Assembly: GCA_949282265.1 (NCBI GenBank)
Contig: CASDOZ010000001.1
Coordinates: 272,401 to 336,400, forward strand
From: an uncultured Bacteroidales bacterium
Lineage (GTDB): Bacteria > Bacteroidota > Bacteroidia > Bacteroidales > Paludibacteraceae
Direction: 5' to 3'
Length of the DNA stretch: 64,000 nt
Below, piece by piece: positions 5,624-17,154 of the stretch. The first letter of the stretch is position 1. Each line of letters begins with the position of its first letter. Position numbers and translations under genes: made by a program. The notes beneath the pieces were generated by a model. The model made no database searches. It was not told the origin of the DNA and saw nothing but the letters and a program-made list of their open reading frames with translations.

Positions 5624-7372
5624 ATGAACGATCAAGAGTTATTACAAGAAGTCATGAAAAAAGCCCAAATGTGGCTTGATGGCAATTATGATGCAGAAAC
5701 AAAAGCTGCTGTGCGGGAATTGATGTCTGCAGAAGACAAGACGGAACTTATTGAGTCTTTTTACAAGAATCTAGAATTCGGAACAGGTGGGCTTCGTGGA
5801 ATCATGGGTGTGGGTACAAACCGCATGAATATTTACACGGTAGGAGCAGCTACACAGGGTTTGAGTAACTATTTGAAAAAACAGTTTGCCGATTTGCCTC
5901 AAATCAGTGTATGTATCGGACATGATTGCCGGAATAACAGCCGTAAATTTGCGGAAATATCCGCCGATATTTTTTCGGCTAATGGAATCAAGGTTTATTT
6001 GTTTGAGGACTTGCGTCCGACGCCAGAAATGTCTTTTGCAATTCGGCATCTTGGTTGCCAGAGCGGTATTATTTTGACGGCTAGTCATAATCCGAAGGAA
6101 TACAATGGCTATAAAGCTTATTGGAGCGATGGTGCGCAAATGATCGCGCCGCATGATACGGCTGTTATTGACGAGGTAAACAAAATTCAGTCCGTAGATG
6201 ACATTAAGTTCCAGGGAAACAAGGCGTTGATTGAAATTATTGGTGCGGAAATTGACAAGTTGTATATTGAAAAAATCAAGACTTTGACTTTGTCGCCGGA
6301 CAGTATAGCGCGCAACAAAGATATGAAAATCGTTTATACGCCGATTCATGGTACGGGGGTACGTCTTGTGCCCATGTGTTTGAAGGAATTTGGCTTCACC
6401 AATATCATTCCTGTGCCGGAACAAAATGTCGTGAGCGGTGATTTCCCGACCGTAGTTTCCCCGAATCCAGAAGAACCAGCAGCATTATCTATGGCAGTAG
6501 CCAAAGCAAAGGAGACGGATGCTGACATAGTTATGGCTTCTGATCCCGACTCAGACCGTTTGGGTATTGCTGTAAAGAACGATGCGGGTGAATGGATTCT
6601 CTGTAATGGTAACCAGACTTGTATTTTGTTTACGTATTATATTTTACGTCGCTGGAAAGAGCTGGGCAGATTGACTGGTAAGGAATTTTGTGTTAAGACC
6701 ATCGTTACCACTGAAGTGATGAGGGATGTGGCCAATAAAATGGGGGTAGAGATTTTTGATTGCTATACTGGTTTCAAATGGATTGCGGCTATTATCCGGG
6801 AATTGGAAGGCAAACGCCAATACATAGGTGGCGGTGAAGAAAGTTACGGTTATTTGGCAGAAGATTTTGTCCGCGACAAAGATGCTGTGTCGGCTTGTGT
6901 GTTGATGGCGGAAATTGCTGCTTGGGCCAAGGACAACGGGAAAACGCTGTTTGAGTTGTTACAAGACATTTATGTGGAAGTCGGCTTTGGTAAGGAAAAA
7001 GGTATCTCCGTAGTACGGAAGGGTAAATCTGGTGCGGAAGAAATCCAACAAATGATGCGTGACTATCGCAATAATCCGCCCAAAGAAATAGCTGGTTCGC
7101 GGGTTGCTCTCATTAAAGATTATCAAACACTGATTGCAACTGAAACAGCAACAGGCAAGACAAGCAAATTGAATTTCCCTTGTACTAGCAATGTTTTGCA
7201 ATTCTTTACGGAAGATGGAACGAAAATTTCAGTGCGTCCATCGGGTACGGAACCTAAAATCAAATTTTATATTGAAGTTCGCGGCATCATGAAAAGCCGC
7301 GCCGATTATGCGGTAGCTGATAAAGCCGCTGCTGAAAAGATAGATGCAGTGCGTGCGTCTTTGGGCGTATAA
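5624..7372 (+). CDS. Phosphoglucomutase/phosphomannomutase (alpha-D-phosphohexomutase)
   Basis: A cytosolic enzyme interconverting hexose-1- and hexose-6-phosphates. The 582 residues fit the longer PgcA-like branch. The catalytic phosphoserine loop TASHNPKEYNGYK lies near residues 152-164. The metal-binding loop is DPDSDRLGIA, the sugar-binding loop GGGEESYGY, and the C-terminal phosphate-binding loop RPSGTEPKIKFY. Its product links central metabolism to glycogen and to cell-envelope sugar nucleotides. It is transcribed alone from its own promoter and is followed by a hairpin terminator at 7400. Family certain; glucose versus mannose preference not readable. Confidence 0.92.
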   Translation: MNDQELLQEVMKKAQMWLDGNYDAETKAAVRELMSAEDKTELIESFYKNLEFGTGGLRGIMGVGTNRMNIYTVGAATQGLSNYLKKQFADLPQISVCIGHDCRNNSRKFAEISADIFSANGIKVYLFEDLRPTPEMSFAIRHLGCQSGIILTASHNPKEYNGYKAYWSDGAQMIAPHDTAVIDEVNKIQSVDDIKFQGNKALIEIIGAEIDKLYIEKIKTLTLSPDSIARNKDMKIVYTPIHGTGVRLVPMCLKEFGFTNIIPVPEQNVVSGDFPTVVSPNPEEPAALSMAVAKAKETDADIVMASDPDSDRLGIAVKNDAGEWILCNGNQTCILFTYYILRRWKELGRLTGKEFCVKTIVTTEVMRDVANKMGVEIFDCYTGFKWIAAIIRELEGKRQYIGGGEESYGYLAEDFVRDKDAVSACVLMAEIAAWAKDNGKTLFELLQDIYVEVGFGKEKGISVVRKGKSGAEEIQQMMRDYRNNPPKEIAGSRVALIKDYQTLIATETATGKTSKLNFPCTSNVLQFFTEDGTKISVRPSGTEPKIKFYIEVRGIMKSRADYAVADKAAAEKIDAVRASLGV

Positions 7373-7399
7373 CGACAACTTAAAAAATAAAAACCTAAA

Positions 7400-7443
7400 C
7401 CACAACGTTAAAACATTCTGTCGGATGTTTTCGTTGTGGTTTT
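7400..7443 (+). terminator. Terminator after the phosphosugar mutase gene
   Basis: CCACAACG (7400-7407) pairs with CGTTGTGG (7432-7439), the inner arms AAAACAT and ATGTTTT extend the hairpin, and TTTTGT follows. It lies 28 bases after the stop codon. Confidence 0.75.
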
Positions 7444-7541
7444 GTCAATTTTTTGCAGCACAGTTTGGTGGTAAGTGTGCAATTTGAAGAAGAACATGCT
7501 TAATTTATTTTGGAAATGACTGTTTTTTGGAATAAATGAGT

Positions 7542-7549
7542 TACTTTTG
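7542..7549 (+). promoter_or_regulatory. Possible -7 promoter box of the alpha-oxoamine synthase gene
   Basis: TACTTTTG matches TAnnTTTG about 60 bases before the ATG, but no TTTG lies at the usual 19-21 base distance. Tentative. Confidence 0.3.
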
Positions 7550-7611
7550 CCGATGAAATAATTTATAACTTGTATAAACATAAAATTTTGTACCAATTTT
7601 TATTATAAAAA

Positions 7612-8886
7612 ATGAAAGATATTTTTGAAACAATCAAATCAATTCCTGGTCCGTTAGGACAATATCAAGGTAATGCAGATGGTTATTTCATGTTCCCAAA
7701 GTTGGAAGGTGAGATTGGCCCCGAAATGGTTTTTAACGGGAAAAAAGTTCTGAACTGGAGTCTGAACAACTATTTGGGCTTAGCGAATCATCCGGAAGTG
7801 AGGAAAGCCGATGCGGAAGGTGCAGCCAAGTTTGGCCTGGCAGCTCCGATGGGAGCTCGTATGATGTCTGGTGATACAGTTTATCACAAGAAATTGGAGC
7901 AGGATTTGGCAGATTTTGTTGGAAAACCGGCTGCTTATTTGATGAATTTTGGCTATCAGGGCATGGTGTCCATTATCGATGTAATGTGTAGTCGTTTCGA
8001 TGTCATTGTCTATGATTCGGAAGCCCATGCTTGTATTATGGACGGAATTTTCTTGCACAAGGCCAAAGGAGGCAAAAGCTTCGTTTATCCACATAATGAC
8101 ATCGATCGCTGCGAAAAGATGTTGAAGATGGCCGAAAACTATATTGACAAGGAAGGCGGAAAAGGCGGTATCTTGGTTGTTACTGAAGGTGTGTTTGGTA
8201 TGGCTGGCGATCTTGGTGCTTTGGACAAAATTGTTGCTTTGAAGAAAAAACACAGTTTCCGTATCTTGGTGGATGATGCACATGGTTTCGGAACTATGGG
8301 TAAAACTGGTGCCGGAACCCCCGAGCATTTTGGTTGCCAAGATGGAATTGACTTGCATTTCTGCACATTTGCAAAAAGTATGGCCGGTATCGGCGCTTTC
8401 ATCGCTTCCGAGCGTGAAATCGTTGACCATTTGCGTTTCAACATGCGTTCCCAGATTTTTGCAAAATCGCTGCCGATGCCAATGGTGATTGGAGCCATGA
8501 AGCGTTTGGAATTGCTGAAAACAGAAAATTCCCTGCGTGAAAAACTTTGGACAATTACACGTACCTTACAGGAAGGTTTGCGTAGCAAAGGATTCGATTT
8601 GGGACACACGCAATCACCTGTTACGCCGGTTTATTTCAAAGGTGGCGTAGGCGAAGGCACCAACATTGTTGTAGATTTGCGTGAAAATTATGGCATATTC
8701 TGTTCTATCGTTGTTTATCCGGTTGTACCGAAAGGTGTTTTGATGCTCCGCATTATACCGACAGCTGCACATACGTTGGAACACGTGGAACGTACCATTA
8801 ACGTATTCAGTGAGGTTAAGGAAAAACTTGCCGCTGGATATTATGATCATGAAATGCCGAATATGAACTTGATAAACAAAGGTTAA
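7612..8886 (+). CDS. Alpha-oxoamine synthase, probable cysteate C-fatty acyltransferase (sulfonolipid synthesis)
   Basis: A PLP-dependent enzyme of the KBL/BioF/serine palmitoyltransferase family, 424 residues, which condenses an amino acid with an acyl thioester and releases CO2. Visible: LNNYLGLANHPEV, the cofactor-stacking region SEAHACIMDG, VDDAHGFGTMG with the PLP-binding Asp and His, and Schiff-base Lys255 in TFAKSMAG. It does not look like the roughly 395-residue serine palmitoyltransferase of Bacteroides. The next gene is a threonine-synthase-like enzyme, the family from which cysteate synthases derive, and a short-chain reductase lies further on. Together they match the three capnine steps: cysteate, 3-ketocapnine, capnine. 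Family is certain; cysteate as substrate is inference from context. It has its own leader and is followed by a terminator, so it may be transcribed apart from the genes below. Confidence 0.8.
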   Translation: MKDIFETIKSIPGPLGQYQGNADGYFMFPKLEGEIGPEMVFNGKKVLNWSLNNYLGLANHPEVRKADAEGAAKFGLAAPMGARMMSGDTVYHKKLEQDLADFVGKPAAYLMNFGYQGMVSIIDVMCSRFDVIVYDSEAHACIMDGIFLHKAKGGKSFVYPHNDIDRCEKMLKMAENYIDKEGGKGGILVVTEGVFGMAGDLGALDKIVALKKKHSFRILVDDAHGFGTMGKTGAGTPEHFGCQDGIDLHFCTFAKSMAGIGAFIASEREIVDHLRFNMRSQIFAKSLPMPMVIGAMKRLELLKTENSLREKLWTITRTLQEGLRSKGFDLGHTQSPVTPVYFKGGVGEGTNIVVDLRENYGIFCSIVVYPVVPKGVLMLRIIPTAAHTLEHVERTINVFSEVKEKLAAGYYDHEMPNMNLINKG

Positions 8887-8898
8887 AGTTTTAGGAGA

Positions 8899-8934
8899 CG
8901 GAACGACGTGCATGTGTATGTCGTTCCGCTTTTT
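8899..8934 (+). terminator. Terminator after the alpha-oxoamine synthase gene
   Basis: A perfect 9-bp stem, CGGAACGAC (8899-8907) with GTCGTTCCG (8920-8928), is followed by CTTTTTGG, 12 bases after the stop. Confidence 0.8.
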
Positions 8935-9031
8935 GGCAAAACAGCATGTCCGCAAAGCCGACACAACTTTTTTGTTGCCGGTCTTTGTGTATTTGTATGT
9001 ATCATAAAATATATCATATTCAGAAAAACTT

Positions 9032-10264
9032 ATGAAATATCAACTCAAATGTAAAAAATGCGGTTACATCACGTCGGACTTTGCAACTTGGTTCAAACAA
9101 GAGCAAACATGCCCAAAATGCGGTAGTAAACATTCGGAGGTGGAGTATTTTACCGATTATGCCAAACTTAAAGATGTCTTTAAAACCCGGCCGGAAAACT
9201 TCTGGGCATATTTTGATTTCTTGCCCTTAATGGACAGGAAAAACATAATTACCTGCAATGAAGGAACACCCGATCTGGAAGAATGGGATTTCTTGGAGAA
9301 GTTTGCGGCGGAGCGTTACGGCGTGGAGTGCAAGGTGGTGGTTTGTCGTAACGACCTGAATGGCGGCACGCAGACTTTCAAGGATGTGGCCGGTGCACTT
9401 GGGGCTTCGATATTTCAGGAAAACGGTGTCCGTGAATATTGCGTGGCATCTACCGGTAATACGGCGACGGCATTTGCCAAATATTTGGCGATCGCCGGTA
9501 TTAAATTTACCAATTTCGCACCGTCCGATATAAATCCAGATTCGGTGGAGGAAATCCGTGCTTTGGGGCAGGAAGTCGTCTTGTCAGAAGGGAATTATGC
9601 GCAGGCCAAGAAGGAAGCGGCCGATTTTGCCGCACAAAACCATGTGCTCATCTCCACCGGCAACATTGACCCTATCCGCGTGGAGGCTAAAAAAACGATG
9701 GCCTTTGACTTCATGCGCCAGTTGGGGCAGTTACCAGATGTGTATATGCAAGCTGTCGGCGGCGGTACAGGCCCGATAGCGTTGGACAAAGGTGTGCGTG
9801 AATTGCAGAGCCATTTTGCTGGCCTGAAAACACCGCGCATGTTGCTTGCGCAACAGGATTTATGCGACCCGATGGTGCAAGGTTGGGAGATGGCGCGTGC
9901 CAAAGGCTTTCCGGAAGGCTTTGAAAACGACTATCCGACCATAGCGAATCCGCAGACGAAAGTTTCTATCTTGTCGGCCGGCGTTCCTGCCATGTTTCCT
10001 GTTATTGCGCCTATCGTCAAGAAGACGCAGGGTGATTTCTTGCGCGTTAAGGAGGCGGAATTACCTGCTTATGCACGGAAAGTATTCGATGAAAGGGGCA
10101 TTTATCTTGGTCCGGCATCCATTGTGTGCATAGCCGGATTTTATCAAGCGCTTGCCGAAGGAAAAATCCGCACGGGCGAAACGGTGTTGCTCAACATAGG
10201 CGAAGGTGCCGGACGCGCATCTGCTTTTGTGGAAGAAACCAAAAAAGCTGCCCCTATTTATTGA
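9032..10264 (+). CDS. Threonine-synthase-like PLP enzyme, probable cysteate synthase
   Basis: A fold-type II PLP enzyme of 410 residues. An N-terminal zinc ribbon has two CxxC pairs (CKKCG and CPKCGS, within about the first 30 residues). The Schiff-base lysine is Lys117 in GGTQTFKDVAG, ASTGNTATA is the substrate carboxylate loop, and VGGGTGPIAL is the PLP phosphate loop. The family includes threonine synthase and the cysteate synthases that make L-cysteate from phosphoserine and sulfite. No threonine-pathway gene is nearby. Instead it is flanked by an oxoamine synthase and an iron-sulfur operon plus reductase, which favours cysteate synthase for sulfonolipids. It is followed after 49 bases by the Hdr-like genes, probably in one transcript. 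Function is inference; an ordinary threonine synthase remains the alternative. Confidence 0.72.
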   Translation: MKYQLKCKKCGYITSDFATWFKQEQTCPKCGSKHSEVEYFTDYAKLKDVFKTRPENFWAYFDFLPLMDRKNIITCNEGTPDLEEWDFLEKFAAERYGVECKVVVCRNDLNGGTQTFKDVAGALGASIFQENGVREYCVASTGNTATAFAKYLAIAGIKFTNFAPSDINPDSVEEIRALGQEVVLSEGNYAQAKKEAADFAAQNHVLISTGNIDPIRVEAKKTMAFDFMRQLGQLPDVYMQAVGGGTGPIALDKGVRELQSHFAGLKTPRMLLAQQDLCDPMVQGWEMARAKGFPEGFENDYPTIANPQTKVSILSAGVPAMFPVIAPIVKKTQGDFLRVKEAELPAYARKVFDERGIYLGPASIVCIAGFYQALAEGKIRTGETVLLNIGEGAGRASAFVEETKKAAPIY

Positions 10265-10313
10265 TGGCCCCGTTCGGGTTCTTGTTATTGAATGGATATG
10301 AAACCACTAACTT

Positions 10314-10958
10314 ATGGGAAATTTATATAATTTATTGATGCAGGATGTCCGCTTTGAGGAAGCGTTGAAAGCCTGCATGAATTGCGGTGTATGTACGGCC
10401 ATCTGCCCGGCAGCAGAATTTTATCCGTACGACCCGCGGAAAATATGCGATATTGTACAACGCCGGAACGAGGAGGAGATTGAAAACTTGCTCCGTTCCG
10501 ACACGATTTGGTATTGCGGGCAATGCATGTCGTGCAAGACACGTTGCCCCCGCGGCAATATACCCGGCTCATTGATAAACATATTGCGCAAGGTTTCACA
10601 GGAGTTGGGCTATTTTGCCGACAGCCGTATGGGCCGCCAGCAATGCAGCCTTGTCGATGGGGTGGGGCGGAACATTCTGGAAATAGGTTATTGCGTCCAT
10701 CCTGACCGCATTGATCCGGCAAAGCATGTCGAGCAAGGGCCAATATGGAAATGGTATCGCGAAAATATCGAGGAAATAGCCCCTAAATTAGGTGCCAATT
10801 ATCATGGCGATGGTCCGGGTGCCTTGCGCACTATCCGGAAAGAAAATTTGGAAGAAATACGCAAAATCTTTGAAGCAACCGGTGGAATCGAGCTTTTGGA
10901 GCAAATTAAACGCGAAGAGCCGGATGTTGCCAAATCCCACAAACATAAGATTGATTGA
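10314..10958 (+). CDS. HdrC-like 4Fe-4S ferredoxin subunit (first copy)
   Basis: A small cytosolic electron carrier of 214 residues with two four-cysteine clusters: CMNCGVCTAICP (about residues 22-33) and CGQCMSCKTRCP (about 65-77), each with the spacing of bacterial 4Fe-4S ferredoxins. The remaining helical part is like HdrC of heterodisulfide reductases. It opens a run of five Fe-S or flavin subunits and is separated from the HdrB-like gene by only 3 bases, so the two are translated from one message. In known complexes HdrC passes electrons between the flavin subunit HdrA and the active-site subunit HdrB. Methanogens use this for CoM-S-S-CoB, which Bacteroidales do not make, so the substrate here is unknown. 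Confidence 0.85.
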   Translation: MGNLYNLLMQDVRFEEALKACMNCGVCTAICPAAEFYPYDPRKICDIVQRRNEEEIENLLRSDTIWYCGQCMSCKTRCPRGNIPGSLINILRKVSQELGYFADSRMGRQQCSLVDGVGRNILEIGYCVHPDRIDPAKHVEQGPIWKWYRENIEEIAPKLGANYHGDGPGALRTIRKENLEEIRKIFEATGGIELLEQIKREEPDVAKSHKHKID

Positions 10959-10961
10959 ACG

Positions 10962-12014
10962 ATGAAACGATACTGGAATGAATATCAGAAAAAAATAGCC
11001 GACGACAAGTTTTTCTATGAACGGAGTTGTATCCGTCAGACTTTTTTCCCAGGTTCGGAAGCCGCTTTCCTGAAAATGTTGCGTGAGGAACTTGGCAAGG
11101 ATATTTATGATGAAGCAAACCAGCATACGTGTACTGGTATTGGCTATCATTCGGATATTGTCCCCTTGCAGACGACCATGACGGTTGTCGCGCGGCTTTT
11201 CGCACTGATGACCGAGGCGGGCTATGAAAACTATGTACCTTCGTGCGTCACTTCGTTCGGCGTGTTCACGGAAATGGTGGAAATGTGGAAACACAACCCG
11301 GAGTTGCTGGAAAAAACACGTAAGATTCTGTATGATACGACCGGACGCACTTTTGAAATCCCGAAAAATATTGCGCATCCATCGGATATTATTTACAAGT
11401 TTCGCTATGAGTTGAAGCAGAAAATGAAATACCAGTTGGTGAACCGTTTTACGGGCAAGCCGTTGCGTGTGGTGGAACATATCGGATGCCATTATGCCAA
11501 GATATTCCCGAAAGCTGGTGTCGGGAATGCCGAATTCCCTTATGTGTTGGCCGGCATGATAGAAGCATGGGGAGGCGAAGTCATCGACTATCCTGAACGC
11601 CGCCATTGTTGCGGTTTCGGTTTCCGCCAATATTTAGTACAGGAAAACCGCGGTTATTCGATAGCCAATTCTAAAAAGAAATTTGAATCCATGGAGCCCT
11701 ATGAGCCCGATTTCATCGTGGCAAATTGCCCGGGATGCACTATGTTTCTTGACAAATGGCAATACACGATAGCCGAGATGGAAAACAAAACCTACGACAA
11801 AAATGGTTACGGAATCCCAGTGCTTTCATATGAAGAAATGGCAGGTTTGCTACTGGGTTATGACCCTTGGAAGTTAGGTTTGCAGTTGCATCAGGTGCAG
11901 GCAGAGCCGTTGCTGAATAAGATAGGCATAGCTTATAATCCAAACGAAAAATTTACAGGTGTTTCCGGGAAAATCTTGCCAAGACCAGAAAAACCGCATA
12001 ATTTATTGGTCTAA
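10962..12014 (+). CDS. HdrB-like CCG-domain iron-sulfur subunit with a degenerate first site
   Basis: The putative catalytic subunit, 350 residues. HdrB proteins carry two CCG modules that hold non-cubane Fe-S clusters. Here the C-terminal module is intact: GCHYAK, HCCGFG and NCPGC. The N-terminal module is reduced: FFPGSE lacks the usual Cys after PG, HTCTG replaces CCG, and PSCVTSF replaces PCxxC, leaving Cys23, Cys57 and Cys95. The protein could therefore hold one regular cluster and one altered or absent site. Tight spacing with the HdrC-like gene before it and the HdrA-like gene after it (24 bases) makes it part of the same complex. Subunit class is sure; chemistry is unknown. Confidence 0.85.
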   Translation: MKRYWNEYQKKIADDKFFYERSCIRQTFFPGSEAAFLKMLREELGKDIYDEANQHTCTGIGYHSDIVPLQTTMTVVARLFALMTEAGYENYVPSCVTSFGVFTEMVEMWKHNPELLEKTRKILYDTTGRTFEIPKNIAHPSDIIYKFRYELKQKMKYQLVNRFTGKPLRVVEHIGCHYAKIFPKAGVGNAEFPYVLAGMIEAWGGEVIDYPERRHCCGFGFRQYLVQENRGYSIANSKKKFESMEPYEPDFIVANCPGCTMFLDKWQYTIAEMENKTYDKNGYGIPVLSYEEMAGLLLGYDPWKLGLQLHQVQAEPLLNKIGIAYNPNEKFTGVSGKILPRPEKPHNLLV

Positions 12015-12038
12015 TCTGAAAACATAAAAGAAAAACAA

Positions 12039-13088
12039 ATGGACGGAAAGATAATATCCATACAGGTTGCCATAATAGGTGGAGGCCCTGCTGGTATAGA
12101 AGCAGCTTCTATTTTAAGTCGTTATGGCGTTCAAGTTTCCTTGTTTGAAGGGGAATCCAAATGGGCGCATAATATTGGGAACAAGTTCAAATTGTTTCCA
12201 GATTTCTCATCAGCTGATGAATTAGTGCAAACATTATCTCAAAAAATAGTTGAAAACCAGATTCCTGCTTATTTAAGTACAAAAATAGTTGCTCTGGAGA
12301 AGCAGAAAAATGCTTGGGTTTTGACCGATGAGCAGGGGAGAAGTTATGTGGCTGATACTGTTTTGTTGGCCACTGGTTATGACATATTTGATGCCAAGCG
12401 TAAAGAAGAATTAGGCTATGGTATTTACAACGGTGTTATGACCTCTGTTGATTTGGAAGCCATGTTGAAAACTGGCAAAATAACAAATGTTTTGGGTGAA
12501 CAGCCTCAATGTGTTACATTTTTGCAGTGTGTTGGTTCGCGTGATGAAAAAATAGGCAACCATTATTGTTCCAAGGTTTGTTGTGTTACGGCAGTGAAAC
12601 AAGCCATAGAAGTAAAAAAAATGTCTCCGCAGACAGATGTGTTTGTCTTTTACATGGATTTGCGCATGTGGGGGCAAGGTTTTGAGGAACTTTATCGAGA
12701 AGCGCAGGAAAAGTACAGTATCCGTTTTGTGCGGGGGCGGATTTCGGAGGCGGCCTCCACTTTTGATGACCGTGTGCAAATCAAGGCGGAAGATACGCTG
12801 GTAGGCCAGCCCTTGAAGATGAGTACCGATTTGCTGGTGTTGATGGTTGGTATGGAAGCCTCGTGCGGAACGAAAAAACTTGCAGCTTGTTGCGGAATTG
12901 ATGGGGAATATGGTTTTGCGCTTAGCAAACAGCCGCATTTGGCTGATAACCAGACAGCACAGCGAGGTTTGTTTGTGGCTGGTGCTTGCAAGCGGCCGAT
13001 GAGTATTTCGGATGCAATTAACGATGCGCGAGCAGCAGCTACAGAGATTGTAGAATATTTAAAAATCGTGCCGGCAAATAAGAAATAA
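12039..13088 (+). CDS. HdrA-like FAD and iron-sulfur subunit (short form)
   Basis: The flavin subunit of the Hdr-like complex, 349 residues. It begins almost at once with the FAD dinucleotide fold (IIGGGPAGIEAASIL) and has TVLLATGYDIFD in the middle. The HdrA signature CVGSRDEKIGNHYCSKVCC supplies cluster-binding cysteines, and GLFVAGACKRPMSISDAI is the C-terminal FAD contact. It lacks the extra N-terminal and ferredoxin domains of methanogen HdrA, which is about twice as long. In that respect it is like the compact HdrA of the sulfur-oxidising sHdr system and QmoA of sulfate reducers. It likely takes electrons from, or gives them to, the neighbouring Fe-S subunits. Confidence 0.87.
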   Translation: MDGKIISIQVAIIGGGPAGIEAASILSRYGVQVSLFEGESKWAHNIGNKFKLFPDFSSADELVQTLSQKIVENQIPAYLSTKIVALEKQKNAWVLTDEQGRSYVADTVLLATGYDIFDAKRKEELGYGIYNGVMTSVDLEAMLKTGKITNVLGEQPQCVTFLQCVGSRDEKIGNHYCSKVCCVTAVKQAIEVKKMSPQTDVFVFYMDLRMWGQGFEELYREAQEKYSIRFVRGRISEAASTFDDRVQIKAEDTLVGQPLKMSTDLLVLMVGMEASCGTKKLAACCGIDGEYGFALSKQPHLADNQTAQRGLFVAGACKRPMSISDAINDARAAATEIVEYLKIVPANKK

Positions 13089-13090
13089 GT

Positions 13091-13462
13091 ATGGATTTTG
13101 GATTTACTATATCGAAGCCACGCTCCATCGAACCGACGGAAGCCGGTAAGGAACAGTTGCGGTTGTTGGAAGAACAAGTGCCGACATTCAGGCGATGCAT
13201 GAACTGCGGTGGTTGTACGGCTACCTGTTCCGCGGGTCATTTTATTAATTTCAACATTCGGAAAGTACATAATCTGTACCGCTGGGGGCAGTACAAGGAA
13301 TTGGACGAGGAACTGCAAAAATGCATGTTGTGCGGCAAGTGTACACTTGTGTGCCCGCGCGGTGTTAATTTGCGTTCGCTCATTATCCATTTGCGGAAAG
13401 CCTTGAATAAGGATCATTTGTCCAACGATTTCCAACATTTTATACGGAATAACAACCGATAA
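13091..13462 (+). CDS. HdrC-like 4Fe-4S ferredoxin subunit (second copy)
   Basis: A 123-residue electron carrier with two clusters, CMNCGGCTATCSAG (about 36-49) and CMLCGKCTLVCPRG (about 78-91). The first cluster ends in CSAG rather than CP, a mild variation. It begins 2 bases after the HdrA-like stop and precedes the membrane subunit by 25 bases. Two HdrC-like proteins in one operon suggest two electron branches, one to the soluble HdrB-like site and one to the membrane protein. Confidence 0.84.
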   Translation: MDFGFTISKPRSIEPTEAGKEQLRLLEEQVPTFRRCMNCGGCTATCSAGHFINFNIRKVHNLYRWGQYKELDEELQKCMLCGKCTLVCPRGVNLRSLIIHLRKALNKDHLSNDFQHFIRNNNR

Positions 13463-13487
13463 AAAGATTAACAAGCAATTAGAATTT

Positions 13488-15269
13488 ATGTCATCATATT
13501 TTCATCCTTTCATATTACCTTTTTGTATAGGCACATTGGTCTTGTTCGTGATTATTGCCGTAAAGTTCTATCGGTGGATAACCACGCTTGACCGTAAGCA
13601 AAAGAAAAACGTCTGGATGTCCTTGCTGACAGTTCGCGTTTTTCCTGCTTTATGGCGGATAGTCAAGGAAATTGTTAAGGAGGTATTATTGCATGTGAAT
13701 ATCACTAGGTACAATTGGCGTATGGGATACATGCATCGGAGTATTGCTTTGGGTTGGTTTTTGTTGATTGTTACTGGATTTGTGGAAACTTTGTTCCATT
13801 TCAGGGGAGGAGGCCATCTTCCGTGGTTGGGTATTTTTTTCCGTTTCTTTGTACGTGATTACACTTACGGTATTTCCCGCGTCTGGGCGGATGTGATGGA
13901 TTTATTATTGCTTTATGTACTTTCTGGCGTTTCCATCGCTATTTTTAAGTCTATTTATTCACGTGTGGTCGGCATACGTAAAAATACTAAGTTGCGTTGG
14001 TTCGACATTTGCCTGCGTTATTCTTTGTGGCTGATATTCCCTATGCGGTTGCTGTCAGAAAGTTGTACGGCGGCTTTGACCGGCAACGGCGGTTTCCTGA
14101 CGCAGGGAATCGGGGACATGCTTCCTACGGAATTTGCCCAAGTCATGGAAGTGCCGTTCTGGACGGCCTATTCCACCTGTTTGTGTGTATTTTTTGTGCT
14201 CTTCCCTTTCTCGCGCTACATGCACATTTTCACCGAGCCACTTTTGATTGTGTTCCGCAGTCTGGGTGTGCGCGAAAGCAGTCAGCCGACTGGATACACG
14301 CGTATGGAGTTGAATGCTTGCTCGCGTTGCGGCATTTGCATAGACGGTTGTCCGCTCGACAAGGAGTTGAAGATAAACGATATACAGGGCGTTTATCTGT
14401 TGCGCGATGTGCGTCACGGTTTGCCGCACCGTAATGCAACGGAAAACTGTCTGATGTGCGACCAGTGCGTTGTGGATTGTCCGGTCGGCATTGAAATTAC
14501 GGAGATACGCAAGCAGGAACGCAACAAAGGTGCGTTGGATACGCATGACAATTACCGTTTCCTCGATTCGATACAGTCTTTCAATGCAATCGGGCGTATC
14601 GCCTATTTTGGCGGTTGCATGTCGCATTTGACGCCTGGCGTAACCGAGTCGATGAAAAAGATTTTTGATGCGGTCGGGCAAAAGTATTGGATGATGGACG
14701 AGGACAAGACAATTTGTTGCGGTCGTCCGTTGTTGCAGCAGGGCTTTATAGCGCAGGCTGCCGAATTGCGTCGGAAAAATGCCCATTTGATTGTGGAAAG
14801 TCATGCGCAATACTTGGTAACTTCTTGCCCGATTTGTTACCAGTCGTTCAAGAAAGAGTATAATTTGCCGATAAAGGTCATTCACCACACTGAATATCTG
14901 GCCGCTTTGATACGGTTGGGCAAGCTGAAACCGCACAAGACTGGCTTGAAAGTGGCTTATCACGATCCGTGCGAGTTGGGGCGCGGTTGCAATATTTACG
15001 ATGAGCCGCGTGAGGTTCTGCAAGCTGTGGCCGAACTGGCTCGCGTGCAGAAAGAGCGCGAACACAGCATTTGTTGCGGCCACAGCCTTGGCAATACGGC
15101 TTTGGATGTGGAAAAGCAGGACAAGGTGCGTGATGCGGCTTTGCGTAATTTGAAGGCAGACCATCCGGATTTGATAGCTACGGCTTGCCCCATGTGTAAA
15201 AAAGCTTTCCAGCGTGACAGGTATACGACCGTTAAAGATATTGCCGAACTTATTGCGGAGCAGTTATGA
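13488..15269 (+). CDS. Membrane-bound Hdr-like fusion (HdrE/NarI-like membrane part plus HdrD-type Fe-S part)
   Basis: A 593-residue fusion. The first ~260 residues carry several hydrophobic helices with scattered histidines, like the quinone- and heme-b-binding part of HdrE, DsrM and NarI. Two 4Fe-4S motifs follow: CSRCGICIDGCPLD (about 278-291) and CLMCDQCVVDCPVG (about 321-334). Two full CCG modules come next: GGCMSH, TICCGR and SCPICY, then PCELGRGC, SICCGH and ACPMCK. The protein would join menaquinol or menaquinone in the membrane to a disulfide or thiol reaction in the cytosol. It combines what DsrM and DsrK, or HdrE and HdrD, do as separate chains. The short-chain reductase start overlaps its stop (ATGA), so they are translationally coupled. 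Confidence 0.86.
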   Translation: MSSYFHPFILPFCIGTLVLFVIIAVKFYRWITTLDRKQKKNVWMSLLTVRVFPALWRIVKEIVKEVLLHVNITRYNWRMGYMHRSIALGWFLLIVTGFVETLFHFRGGGHLPWLGIFFRFFVRDYTYGISRVWADVMDLLLLYVLSGVSIAIFKSIYSRVVGIRKNTKLRWFDICLRYSLWLIFPMRLLSESCTAALTGNGGFLTQGIGDMLPTEFAQVMEVPFWTAYSTCLCVFFVLFPFSRYMHIFTEPLLIVFRSLGVRESSQPTGYTRMELNACSRCGICIDGCPLDKELKINDIQGVYLLRDVRHGLPHRNATENCLMCDQCVVDCPVGIEITEIRKQERNKGALDTHDNYRFLDSIQSFNAIGRIAYFGGCMSHLTPGVTESMKKIFDAVGQKYWMMDEDKTICCGRPLLQQGFIAQAAELRRKNAHLIVESHAQYLVTSCPICYQSFKKEYNLPIKVIHHTEYLAALIRLGKLKPHKTGLKVAYHDPCELGRGCNIYDEPREVLQAVAELARVQKEREHSICCGHSLGNTALDVEKQDKVRDAALRNLKADHPDLIATACPMCKKAFQRDRYTTVKDIAELIAEQL

Positions 15270-16051
15270 GAAAATTCCAATCCATATTGATTACGGGTGC
15301 CGGTTCTGGCATTGGTGAAGCCATTGCCTGCCGCTTTGCCAGGCAGGGGAGTAGTCTGATGTTGGTTGGGCGCAATGCGGAACGTCTGGAAGCCGTTACA
15401 AAGCAGTGTATCGCCTTGGGCGGGAAAGCCGTGTGGCGTCAAGTTGATATGGCAAATCCCGATTCCATCGATACTTTTGTGAATGAATTGAAGGAGCAGG
15501 GACGTGTTTTTGACTGCCTGGTGCTGAATGCCGGCATCTCGCAGCGCGCGCTGGCATTGGAAACCGATTTCAGCGTGGACCGCAAAATCATGGAAACGAA
15601 TTACTTCGGGCCTGTCTGTCTGACCAAAAAGCTGGGTTATATGCTGAAAAGTAATCCCTATACGGCCATTGCCGTTACCAATTCCATTTCCGGGCTGTTC
15701 GGATTCCCGTTGCGTTCGGCATATTGTGCATCCAAGCACGCCTTGTTCGGTTTTTTTGAAACCTTGGAACTGGAAAACGACAACATATACGTCACTTTCC
15801 TGATTCCGGGACGCATTAACACGCCTATCAGCAAAAGTGCGGTTCTGGGCAACGGCGAAACATACGGGCAGATGGACAGCGGGCAGGCCAATGGCCTTGA
15901 TGTGGGAAAATGTGCGGAGATAGCCGTCCGTGCCATTGAGAAAGGCAAGCACCGGCAGCTCATTGGCGGCAAGGAACTGCTGATGGTACATTTCAAAAAA
16001 TGGATACCGCCCTTGTTCCGCCGGCTGGCACGCAAGGTGAGCGCGACATGA
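15266..16051 (+). CDS. Short-chain dehydrogenase/reductase, candidate 3-ketocapnine (ketosphinganine-type) reductase
   Basis: A classical SDR of 261 residues. The cofactor loop is TGAGSGIG (about 9-16), LNAG is the structural motif, and the active site has Ser in TNSISG and YCASK as the catalytic Tyr/Lys pair. Arg in the segment after the second strand (VGRNAERL) favours NADPH. The C-terminus is basic and amphipathic (FKKWIPPLFRRLARK), which could attach the enzyme to the membrane, as expected for a lipid substrate. SDRs of this type reduce the keto product of oxoamine synthases in sphingolipid and sulfonolipid synthesis. The pairing with the enzyme at 7612 is the basis of the proposed role; the substrate is not proven by sequence. 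Confidence 0.8.
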   Translation: MRKFQSILITGAGSGIGEAIACRFARQGSSLMLVGRNAERLEAVTKQCIALGGKAVWRQVDMANPDSIDTFVNELKEQGRVFDCLVLNAGISQRALALETDFSVDRKIMETNYFGPVCLTKKLGYMLKSNPYTAIAVTNSISGLFGFPLRSAYCASKHALFGFFETLELENDNIYVTFLIPGRINTPISKSAVLGNGETYGQMDSGQANGLDVGKCAEIAVRAIEKGKHRQLIGGKELLMVHFKKWIPPLFRRLARKVSAT

Positions 16052-16089
16052 TGCCAGATAAGTTTGGAGATTCTAAAAACATAATAATT

Positions 16090-17154
16090 ATGAAAGAGAA
16101 AGTTATTTGCGGAATGCAGCAGGTAGGCATTGGCGTTGAAAACGTGCATGAAGCCTTCAAATGGTATATGGAAGCCTTCGGGTGTAATGCCAAGATTTTG
16201 GATGCGGAAGGCACGGCCGAACGCATGTTGCCCTACACGGGAGGCAAGCCGCAGGATCGTTGGGCGATTCTGGCCTACAACTTGCGCGGTGGCGGCGGTT
16301 TTGAAATATGGCAACCGCAAGGGCGTGCCTTGCGTTATCTGCAAGAGCCGGTACGTTTGGGCGATTTGGGCATCTTGTGTGCAAAAATCAAGGCAAAAGA
16401 TATTCAGTGGGCATATAACCATTTGAAACAGGTTATCGGGGCGAAAATCCTTTGCGAACCGGTAACGGCCTTGTCGGGCAGGAAACATTTCTTCTTGCTG
16501 GACGTGTATGGCAATTTGTTCCAGGTGGAAGAAGACAATTACGTTTTCATCGACCAAAACAAGGCAACCGGCGGCGCCAATGGTGCATTCATCGGTGTTT
16601 CGGATATGGAAAAATCCATGGCTTTTTATGGCAAGCTACTGGGATTTGACCGCGTGGAATACGATGAAACTGGCGTTTTTGATGATTTGCAGGGCGTTGA
16701 AGGCGGCGACAAACGCTTGCGCCGTGTCATGCTGAACCGCACCAAACCCATGCAAGGGCCGCTCAGCGAGATTATGGGTACTGCTCACATAGAACTCGTG
16801 CAAGCATTGGAAGGAACGCCCAAGAAGCTGTACGAGGGTCGCTGGTGGGGCGACCCTGGATTTATCCACTTGTGTTTTGATGTGCGGAACATGGAAGCCG
16901 TGAAAGTCGATGCCGAGGCGCTCGGCCACCCGTTCGTGTGCGACAGCGGCGCGGACTTCAAGATGGGCGAAGCAGATGGCCATTTCACCTACGTGGAAGA
17001 CCCGGATGGAACCCTGATTGAGTTTGTGGAAACCTTTAAAATACCGGTTTTGAAAAAAATGGGCATTTACCTGCACTTGGACGGCAAGGACGACAAAAAG
17101 CCCCTGCCGCGCTATATAACCAAAGCATTGCGTTTCCTGGAAGTAAAAGGTTAA
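16090..17154 (+). CDS. Two-domain VOC (glyoxalase/dioxygenase superfamily) protein
   Basis: A cytosolic protein of 354 residues built from two VOC modules, about residues 5-140 and 155-320. The second half has HIELVQ, HLCFDV and a terminal DGTLIEFVET, which could give the two His and one Glu metal ligands usual in this superfamily. The first half has weaker matches. VOC proteins include glyoxalases, epimerases and ring-cleaving or hydroxyphenylpyruvate-type dioxygenases. Position at the end of the Hdr-like operon, 38 bases after the reductase, suggests a linked role, but the reaction cannot be named. I place the start at 16090; the longer frame from 16000 overlaps the SDR gene. Confidence 0.75.
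   Translation: MKEKVICGMQQVGIGVENVHEAFKWYMEAFGCNAKILDAEGTAERMLPYTGGKPQDRWAILAYNLRGGGGFEIWQPQGRALRYLQEPVRLGDLGILCAKIKAKDIQWAYNHLKQVIGAKILCEPVTALSGRKHFFLLDVYGNLFQVEEDNYVFIDQNKATGGANGAFIGVSDMEKSMAFYGKLLGFDRVEYDETGVFDDLQGVEGGDKRLRRVMLNRTKPMQGPLSEIMGTAHIELVQALEGTPKKLYEGRWWGDPGFIHLCFDVRNMEAVKVDAEALGHPFVCDSGADFKMGEADGHFTYVEDPDGTLIEFVETFKIPVLKKMGIYLHLDGKDDKKPLPRYITKALRFLEVKG

Follow-up and report, generated by a model that had tools for sequence, protein, structure and literature searches.

The window analysed here, a 64,000-nucleotide stretch of contig CASDOZ010000001.1 (positions 272,401 to 336,400; assembly GCA_949282265.1) from an uncultured Bacteroidales bacterium of the Paludibacteraceae whose genome is about 89% complete, contains a locus in which genes resembling those for capnine synthesis flank the genes for five subunits of a heterodisulfide reductase (Hdr)-like complex. 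We consider it probable that these genes form a sulfonolipid (capnine) cluster that includes an Hdr-based supply of sulfite. In the mechanism that we propose, HdrC1, HdrB1, HdrA, HdrC2, and HdrD would together form sulfite by oxidizing reduced sulfur, whether sulfide, persulfide, or sulfane sulfur bound to thiols. Electrons would reach HdrD, the membrane subunit, by way of Fe–S clusters and flavin and would probably go on to menaquinone; with midpoint potentials of about -116 mV for sulfite/sulfide and about -74 mV for menaquinone, such a flow would be possible. A pyridoxal 5'-phosphate (PLP) enzyme, hereafter CysS, would condense phosphoserine with the sulfite to form cysteate, SulA would join the acyl group of an acyl carrier protein (acyl-ACP) to cysteate, and a short-chain dehydrogenase/reductase (SDR) would then reduce the 3-ketocapnine. 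Hdr would replace, as the sulfite source, CysH, the phosphoadenylyl- or adenylyl-sulfate (PAPS/APS) reductase that makes sulfite in sulfate assimilation. The gene list and coordinates of an earlier note on this DNA were correct for all eight of these genes (Table 1).

The known parts of the capnine pathway are SulA/CapB, either CapA or an archaeal-type cysteate synthase, and CapC/KCR. When the acyltransferase of the window was compared with the PDB using phmmer, its best match, over the full length, was 7u7h (614 bits, E = 1.2e-183), deposited under the title "7-keto-8-aminopelargonate synthetase-like enzyme", followed by 28eh, "Cysteate-C-fatty acyltransferase" (542 bits, E = 9.2e-162). The top serine palmitoyltransferase scored only 217 bits, and the SulA-type chains are clearly closer. 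The 7u7h chain is probably Alistipes finegoldii SulA, given that the primers published in PMC9304779 match the stretch that holds its diagnostic lysine; the same article gives Lys281 as the residue that separates SulA from Spt, which has alanine at that position (PMC9304779). The equivalent residue in the window is Lys285 (in SQIFAKSLPM), and lysine occupied this position in all 28 loci (L003, the window copy, included) retrieved with a flanking-motif pattern that fixed the neighbours and left the residue free, a count that is no census since SulA loci with another flanking motif fall outside it. The assignment of the first gene as a SulA/CapB-type cysteate acyltransferase, with a predicted role in 3-ketocapnine formation, is well supported by these comparisons. 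The earlier note's proposal of capnine synthesis is thereby borne out for SulA, and also by a SulA–CysS–SDR–VOC core that recurs elsewhere. In some of the 120 genomes sampled from the family of the window (e.g., G249, G265, G281, and G316; G and L numbers are our own labels for genomes and loci), a class of alpha-oxoamine synthases 46–54% identical to SulA was found beside a 36–38% paralogue in the same genome.

To follow the distribution of these genes, one draw of 247 genomes from the order of the window was searched for HdrB, SulA, CysS, and CysH. Hdr was scored in 79 genomes (HdrB identity of at least 59%, two of them by fragments only; weaker matches, under 33% identity, were disregarded, as was a second fragment in G064), SulA in 174 (E <= 1e-110; the weakest positive genome had 1.1e-163), CysH in 157 (E <= 1e-10; 142 over the curated cut-off), and CysS in 47 (E <= 1e-80). 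The statistics that follow are comparative genomics ignoring kinship among the genomes. Hdr was present in 73 of the 174 SulA-positive genomes and in 6 of the 73 SulA-negative ones; the earlier note had allowed that the Hdr-like genes might be equally common in genomes without the lipid genes, and they are not. The association was concentrated in the 90 genomes lacking CysH, where Hdr occurred in 24 of 37 SulA-positive and 2 of 53 SulA-negative genomes (Fisher test, 1.7e-10), both exceptions being 76% complete. Among the 157 genomes with CysH, the link faded (49/137 vs 4/20, p = 0.21). When one genome per family was retained (n = 119; G000–G119 without G041, chosen by family labels, which for unlisted genomes were inferred from the numbering), the corresponding counts were 14/22 vs 0/19 (p = 9e-6) without CysH and 23/66 vs 1/12 (p = 0.09) with it. 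The contrast among CysH-negative genomes also held when HdrA was required in the locus (23/37 vs 2/53) and when CysH was scored at its curated cut-off (29/51 vs 2/54).

A similar pattern was seen in the family sample of 120 genomes, four of which (G000, G041, G151, and G245) also belong to the order sample. SulA was scored here at an identity of at least 67%. The curated cut-off, used for CysH, gave 13 genomes; relaxing it to E <= 1e-10 gave 18, and the five gained have neither SulA nor Hdr. Hdr was found in 9 of the 12 SulA-positive genomes and in 0 of the 108 SulA-negative genomes, or in 7/8 vs 0/99 when only CysH-negative genomes were considered. Two of the three SulA-positive genomes without Hdr have CysH (G269 and G277), and the third (G361) has neither, whereas the two Hdr-positive genomes that also carry CysH (G272 and G298) have Hdr genes that do not adjoin SulA.

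Hdr and CysH thus complement each other. Among the SulA-positive genomes of the order, they were negatively associated (odds ratio [OR] 0.30, p = 0.002; OR 0.42, p = 0.012 with the strict CysH cut-off), and one or the other was present in 161 of 174 SulA-positive genomes, compared with 22 of 73 SulA-negative ones. Furthermore, four other genomes (L209, L210, L211, and L212) have cysH itself placed between sulA and the CysS homologue, the CysH of L209 being above both the PRK02090 and the TIGR00434 cut-offs, and coordinates of the matches listed place it within 10 kb of sulA in at least three more (G062, G104, and G167). These loci were picked for their close coordinates, and the two genes are apart in most SulA-positive, CysH-positive genomes among the matches listed. 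The earlier note had placed the Hdr-like complex in the capnine pathway, either making sulfite or supplying reducing power. Participation in the pathway is supported by co-occurrence with SulA, complementarity with CysH, and gene order. Of the two roles, sulfite production is favoured because Hdr complements CysH and because of the CysS–CysH–SulA order in the four genomes; the supply of reducing power predicts no such pattern.

The lipid and Hdr modules are also physically linked. Of 77 order-sample loci, counted without the window, 5 had SulA no more than 10 kb away from HdrB, as had 19 of 80 loci from a genome collection; the control genes PGM (2/77 and 1/80), LptB (1/77 and 0/80), and Rnz (2/77 and 0/80) were that close far less often. 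The order-sample count leaves out nine further loci, and many loci end at contig edges; the genome-collection loci were chosen by closeness to the HdrB family of the window, and a few of their contigs (e.g., L119 and L037) duplicate the order sample. In the window, the order is SulA–CysS followed by Hdr, as in L035, L039, and L122, with the Hdr module arranged as C1-B-A-C2-D and then SDR, the start of which overlaps the end of HdrD by four bases (15266 vs 15269). Nine loci (e.g., L036, L118, and L120) have the order SulA–CysS–SDR–VOC–C1–C2–D–B–A, and five have C1–B–A–C2–D–SulA–CysS–SDR–VOC (L175 from Marinilabiliales, L179 from Porphyromonadaceae, L180 from Paludibacter, L200, and L203). In four others (L149, L153, L154, and L166), the lipid genes lie downstream in inverted orientation. 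The maintenance of the two modules together in several gene orders is a real and recurrent association. HdrB and HdrD were on separate contigs in three genomes (G001, G120, and G218). A strong terminator-like hairpin, found in a consensus scan only, separates sulA from the CysS gene in the window, so that sulA may in part be transcribed on its own.

Several observations weigh against a dedicated sulfite supply. Hdr and CysH are not exclusive, as 49 SulA-positive genomes hold both. CysS does not track Hdr overall in the order sample (14/79 Hdr-positive vs 33/168 Hdr-negative genomes, p = 0.86), so that most genomes with Hdr and SulA would have to depend on a cysteate synthase of another kind. 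Thirteen SulA-positive genomes (G003, G020, G033, G045, G055, G058, G076, G107, G150, G187, G201, G215, and G244) yielded neither CysH, HdrB, nor HdrD, and another source of sulfite or cysteate would be expected in them. Conversely, six Hdr-positive genomes lack SulA (G022, G154, G156, G164, G227, and G236), and two of these have a completeness of 94% or more; HdrD was not found in G236, whose Hdr locus stops at a contig end. In 72 of the 77 order-sample loci, some of them truncated by contig ends, no SulA was seen at 10 kb or less from HdrB, and the layout met most often, in 65 of 157 loci, is an Hdr operon of five genes with none of the lipid genes visible. An FeFe hydrogenase, a patchy anaerobe gene scored in the order sample as a control, also tracks SulA (OR 4.7 overall and 7.9 in CysH-negative genomes), which means that some of the signal comes from lifestyle or ancestry. 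Finally, neither LbpA, TusA, nor rhodanese was detected with Pfam among the 10 proteins encoded at 5624–17151, sulfurtransferases elsewhere in the genome not having been searched for, and no LbpA candidate was found beside Hdr, the one GcvH found in this 89%-complete genome being on another contig, adjoined by purE- and pgk-like open reading frames (ORFs; names from reading the ORFs). When the clustered recurrent neighbours of Hdr were considered as sulfur-transfer partners, their N-termini read as a two-component pair, an ATP-binding cassette (ABC) transporter, and housekeeping genes rather than sulfurtransferases. The probable two-component pair (kinase-like plus response-regulator-like, by reading) lies near the Hdr operons of L064, L074, L080, L096, L099, L101, L109, and L113.

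Some of these observations would fit a different explanation, in which Hdr is a general oxidizer of sulfur or thiols that serves energy supply or the detoxification of sulfide, its co-occurrence with the sulfonolipid genes reflecting a shared anaerobic lifestyle or ancestry. The abundance of Hdr operons without visible lipid genes and the confounding revealed by the hydrogenase are in its favour, as is the interpretation of Hdr genes in Black Sea isolates, including Bacteroidota, as a possible means of sulfide tolerance (PMC11129491), although the authors, in the available part of that article, observed no sulfide oxidation in culture (PMC11129491). We nevertheless regard this explanation as unlikely. 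It does not account for the weakening of the Hdr–SulA association where CysH is present, the absence of Hdr from every SulA-negative genome of the family sample, or the repeated linkage to sulA in several gene orders. The confounding exists, but the Hdr signal outweighs it: the Hdr–SulA link in CysH-negative genomes (OR 47) exceeds that of the hydrogenase and persists both in genomes with the hydrogenase (18/28 SulA-positive vs 1/15 SulA-negative, OR 25) and in those without it (6/9 vs 1/38, OR 74), and the hydrogenase shows no complementarity with CysH in this sample (OR 0.87, p = 0.84).

It is less probable still that Hdr moves electrons for a later lipid step, such as reduction, desaturation, or hydroxylation of the capnine chain, and makes no sulfite. 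The position of the Hdr genes of the window between CysS and SDR, with the overlap into the latter, would suit such a role, but it predicts neither the complementarity with CysH nor the placement of cysH between CysS and SulA, and Hdr is missing from 88 of the 137 genomes that have both SulA and CysH. A reductive Hdr that shields the cell from the sulfite of the pathway, by clearing its excess or reducing disulfides as the methanogen homologues reduce heterodisulfide, is hardly credible, since it should accompany a sulfite source and not replace one, although sources such as desulfonation were left out of the search.

Among the Hdr subunits, the likeness of HdrA to 6tjr and of the HdrD model to EtfD speaks for the sulfite-forming reading. 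In HdrB1, the C-terminal CCG motif is complete (C176, C216–C217, C256, and C259) and the N-terminal one is degenerate (C23, C57, and C95), both states being invariant in 17 aligned sequences. HdrA (349 amino acids) is a short form without the extra domains of methanogen HdrA, and its residues 10–345 align with residues 4–344 of the 349-residue chain 6tjr (E = 3.1e-52), which we take to be the sHdrA of Hyphomicrobium denitrificans. All Hdr proteins of the window scored under the equivalog cut-offs for HdrA, HdrB, and HdrC of methanogen HdrABC. Across 18 sequences, HdrD opens with a hydrophobic membrane domain whose H69, H83, and H246 are invariant, and it also carries two [4Fe-4S] motifs plus a pair of complete CCG motifs. 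Its AlphaFold model is of moderate quality (mean predicted local distance difference test score [pLDDT], 77; predicted template modelling score [pTM], 0.57), and the best fold match is EtfD of Mycobacterium smegmatis (9ojn; TMq 0.70, root mean square deviation 7.3, E = 2.6e-19), followed by HdrB chains over part of its length. EtfD is a reductase that passes electrons from the electron-transfer flavoprotein (ETF) to menaquinone; its partner is ETF, whereas that of HdrD is Hdr, and the two proteins are only 17% identical.

The sHdr–LbpA complex turns sulfane sulfur into sulfite (PMC10451225, PMC11582611, PMC6067878) and comprises A, C1, and B1 together with C2 and B2 (type I) or a fused B3 (type II) (PMC11582611). 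The complex of the window resembles the H. denitrificans type in its C1–B1–A core, short HdrA, and proposed product. In contrast, the protein in the place of B2 is a fused membrane subunit that bears ferredoxin motifs as well as two CCG domains, no LbpA gene lies alongside, and its predicted role is anabolic, whereas sHdr–LbpA is dissimilatory. As sHdr genes are described as "inevitably" associated with LbpA (PMC6067878) and this association is missing here, we read the complex as sHdr-like in action and do not file it as sHdr. Its nearest relative in a plasmid collection is a cluster of Picosynechococcus sp. PCC 7003 (L236, 8221–13961), with the order C1–B1–A–C2 and identities of 47%, 43%, and 39% for C1, B1, and A, in which a separate B2-like protein and a Pyr_redox_2 flavoprotein replace the membrane HdrD. 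That collection yielded no full sHdr set; its HdrB matches were Picosynechococcus (42.6%) and three Acidithiobacillus plasmids (28.7%), and its HdrA matches were Picosynechococcus and Ilyobacter. HdrA was absent from 11 HdrB loci. An HdrC–HdrB pair without HdrA or HdrD was found in L062, L059, L085, L090, L076, L095, and L098, in clusters that, according to Pfam for members of L062, L085, and L090, include MinD-type Fe–S ATPases, DUF134, and dinitrogenase-cofactor-type proteins; these clusters bear a resemblance to the orange-protein clusters known from sulfate reducers.

The cluster shares with the capnine pathway of Alistipes and other Bacteroidota a SulA-type enzyme with the diagnostic lysine, a cysteate-synthase-like enzyme, and an SDR. 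It differs from the pathway as published in joining SDR and Hdr to the lipid genes; in the available part of PMC11211663, the kcr genes of A. finegoldii and C. gleum do not cluster with cfat and Cys. Capnine lipids are reported from Ancylomarina, Labilibaculum, and Lutibacter and, as far as the available part of that article goes, are not connected there to Hdr genes (PMC11129491). A literature search, with most subscription journals outside its reach, returned no statement linking Hdr or a sulfite source to sulfonolipid synthesis.

CysS of the window falls between the threonine synthase and cysteate synthase models and above neither cut-off, with 113.6 bits against TIGR03844 cysteate_syn (cut-off 324.9) and 157 bits against PRK08197 (cut-off 303). 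Homologues scored similarly against TIGR03844 (128.6 and 129.3 in CysH–SulA loci and 121.9 in the Hdr–SulA locus L175), CysS is 48% identical to the homologues of three CysS–CysH–SulA loci, and the four cysteines of its N-terminal zinc ribbon are kept in 8/8 aligned sequences. In the order sample, 8 of the 47 genomes with CysS carried a copy at least 61% identical, and all eight were Hdr-positive. The genome of the window holds four PALP-family matches, one of the other three being ThrC (G000:C5; TIGR00260, 281 vs a cut-off of 167), and it is therefore unlikely that CysS is solely a threonine synthase; the remaining two look like CysK and a TrpB-like protein from reading of the ORFs. From its gene context, CysS is predicted to be a cysteate synthase acting on sulfite and phosphoserine, and a relative of the archaeal cysteate synthase is carried by Alistipes and Odoribacter (PMC10191378). 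The SDR fits the short-chain dehydrogenase family (PF00106, 137.5 bits; no PDB match at 1e-25), and its recurrent linkage with SulA–CysS makes it a candidate 3-ketocapnine reductase. A two-domain VOC protein, with only weak PDB matches (best E, 0.017), recurs with SulA–CysS–SDR elsewhere and lies just 5' of HdrC1 in many loci of the genome collection.

Table 1. Genes and other features of the capnine–Hdr locus, in positions of the window
Feature	Position	Strand	Basis
SulA/CapB-type cysteate acyl-ACP transferase (alpha-oxoamine synthase)	7612..8886	+	phmmer, diagnostic Lys285
Terminator-like hairpin, 13 pairs, then CTTTTTGG	8899..8928	+	Consensus scan only
Cysteate-synthase-like PLP enzyme (CysS), N-terminal zinc ribbon	9032..10264	+	TIGR03844, PRK08197, homologue identity
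HdrC1, ferredoxin-type subunit, two [4Fe-4S] motifs	10314..10958	+	Family models
HdrB1, HdrB-like subunit with CCG motifs	10962..12014	+	Family models, alignment
HdrA, short flavin/[4Fe-4S] subunit	12039..13088	+	Near end-to-end alignment with 349-residue 6tjr
HdrC2, small ferredoxin-type subunit	13091..13462	+	Family models
HdrD, membrane Fer4 plus two-CCG protein	13488..15269	+	Pfam, alignment, predicted fold
SDR, candidate 3-ketocapnine reductase	15266..16051	+	PF00106; recurs beside SulA–CysS
Two-domain VOC protein	16090..17154	+	ORF opens at 16000, start uncertain (likely near 16090)

The broader proposition, towards which we lean only slightly, is that this represents an anabolic, LbpA-independent, menaquinone-coupled form of Hdr, with which anaerobic Bacteroidales would oxidize sulfide or persulfide sulfur to sulfite for the sulfonate head of a lipid and not for energy, in substitution for assimilatory sulfate reduction. 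Bacteroidota of the gut and the environment contain sulfonolipids, which are bioactive. If the proposition is true, it shows how anaerobes living amid sulfide could make sulfonolipid from reduced sulfur without the usual sulfate-reducing enzyme. Hdr-like complexes would gain a biosynthetic role, with reduced sulfur as a lipid precursor, and the Hdr operons in 79 of the 247 sampled genomes of the order would acquire a testable function.

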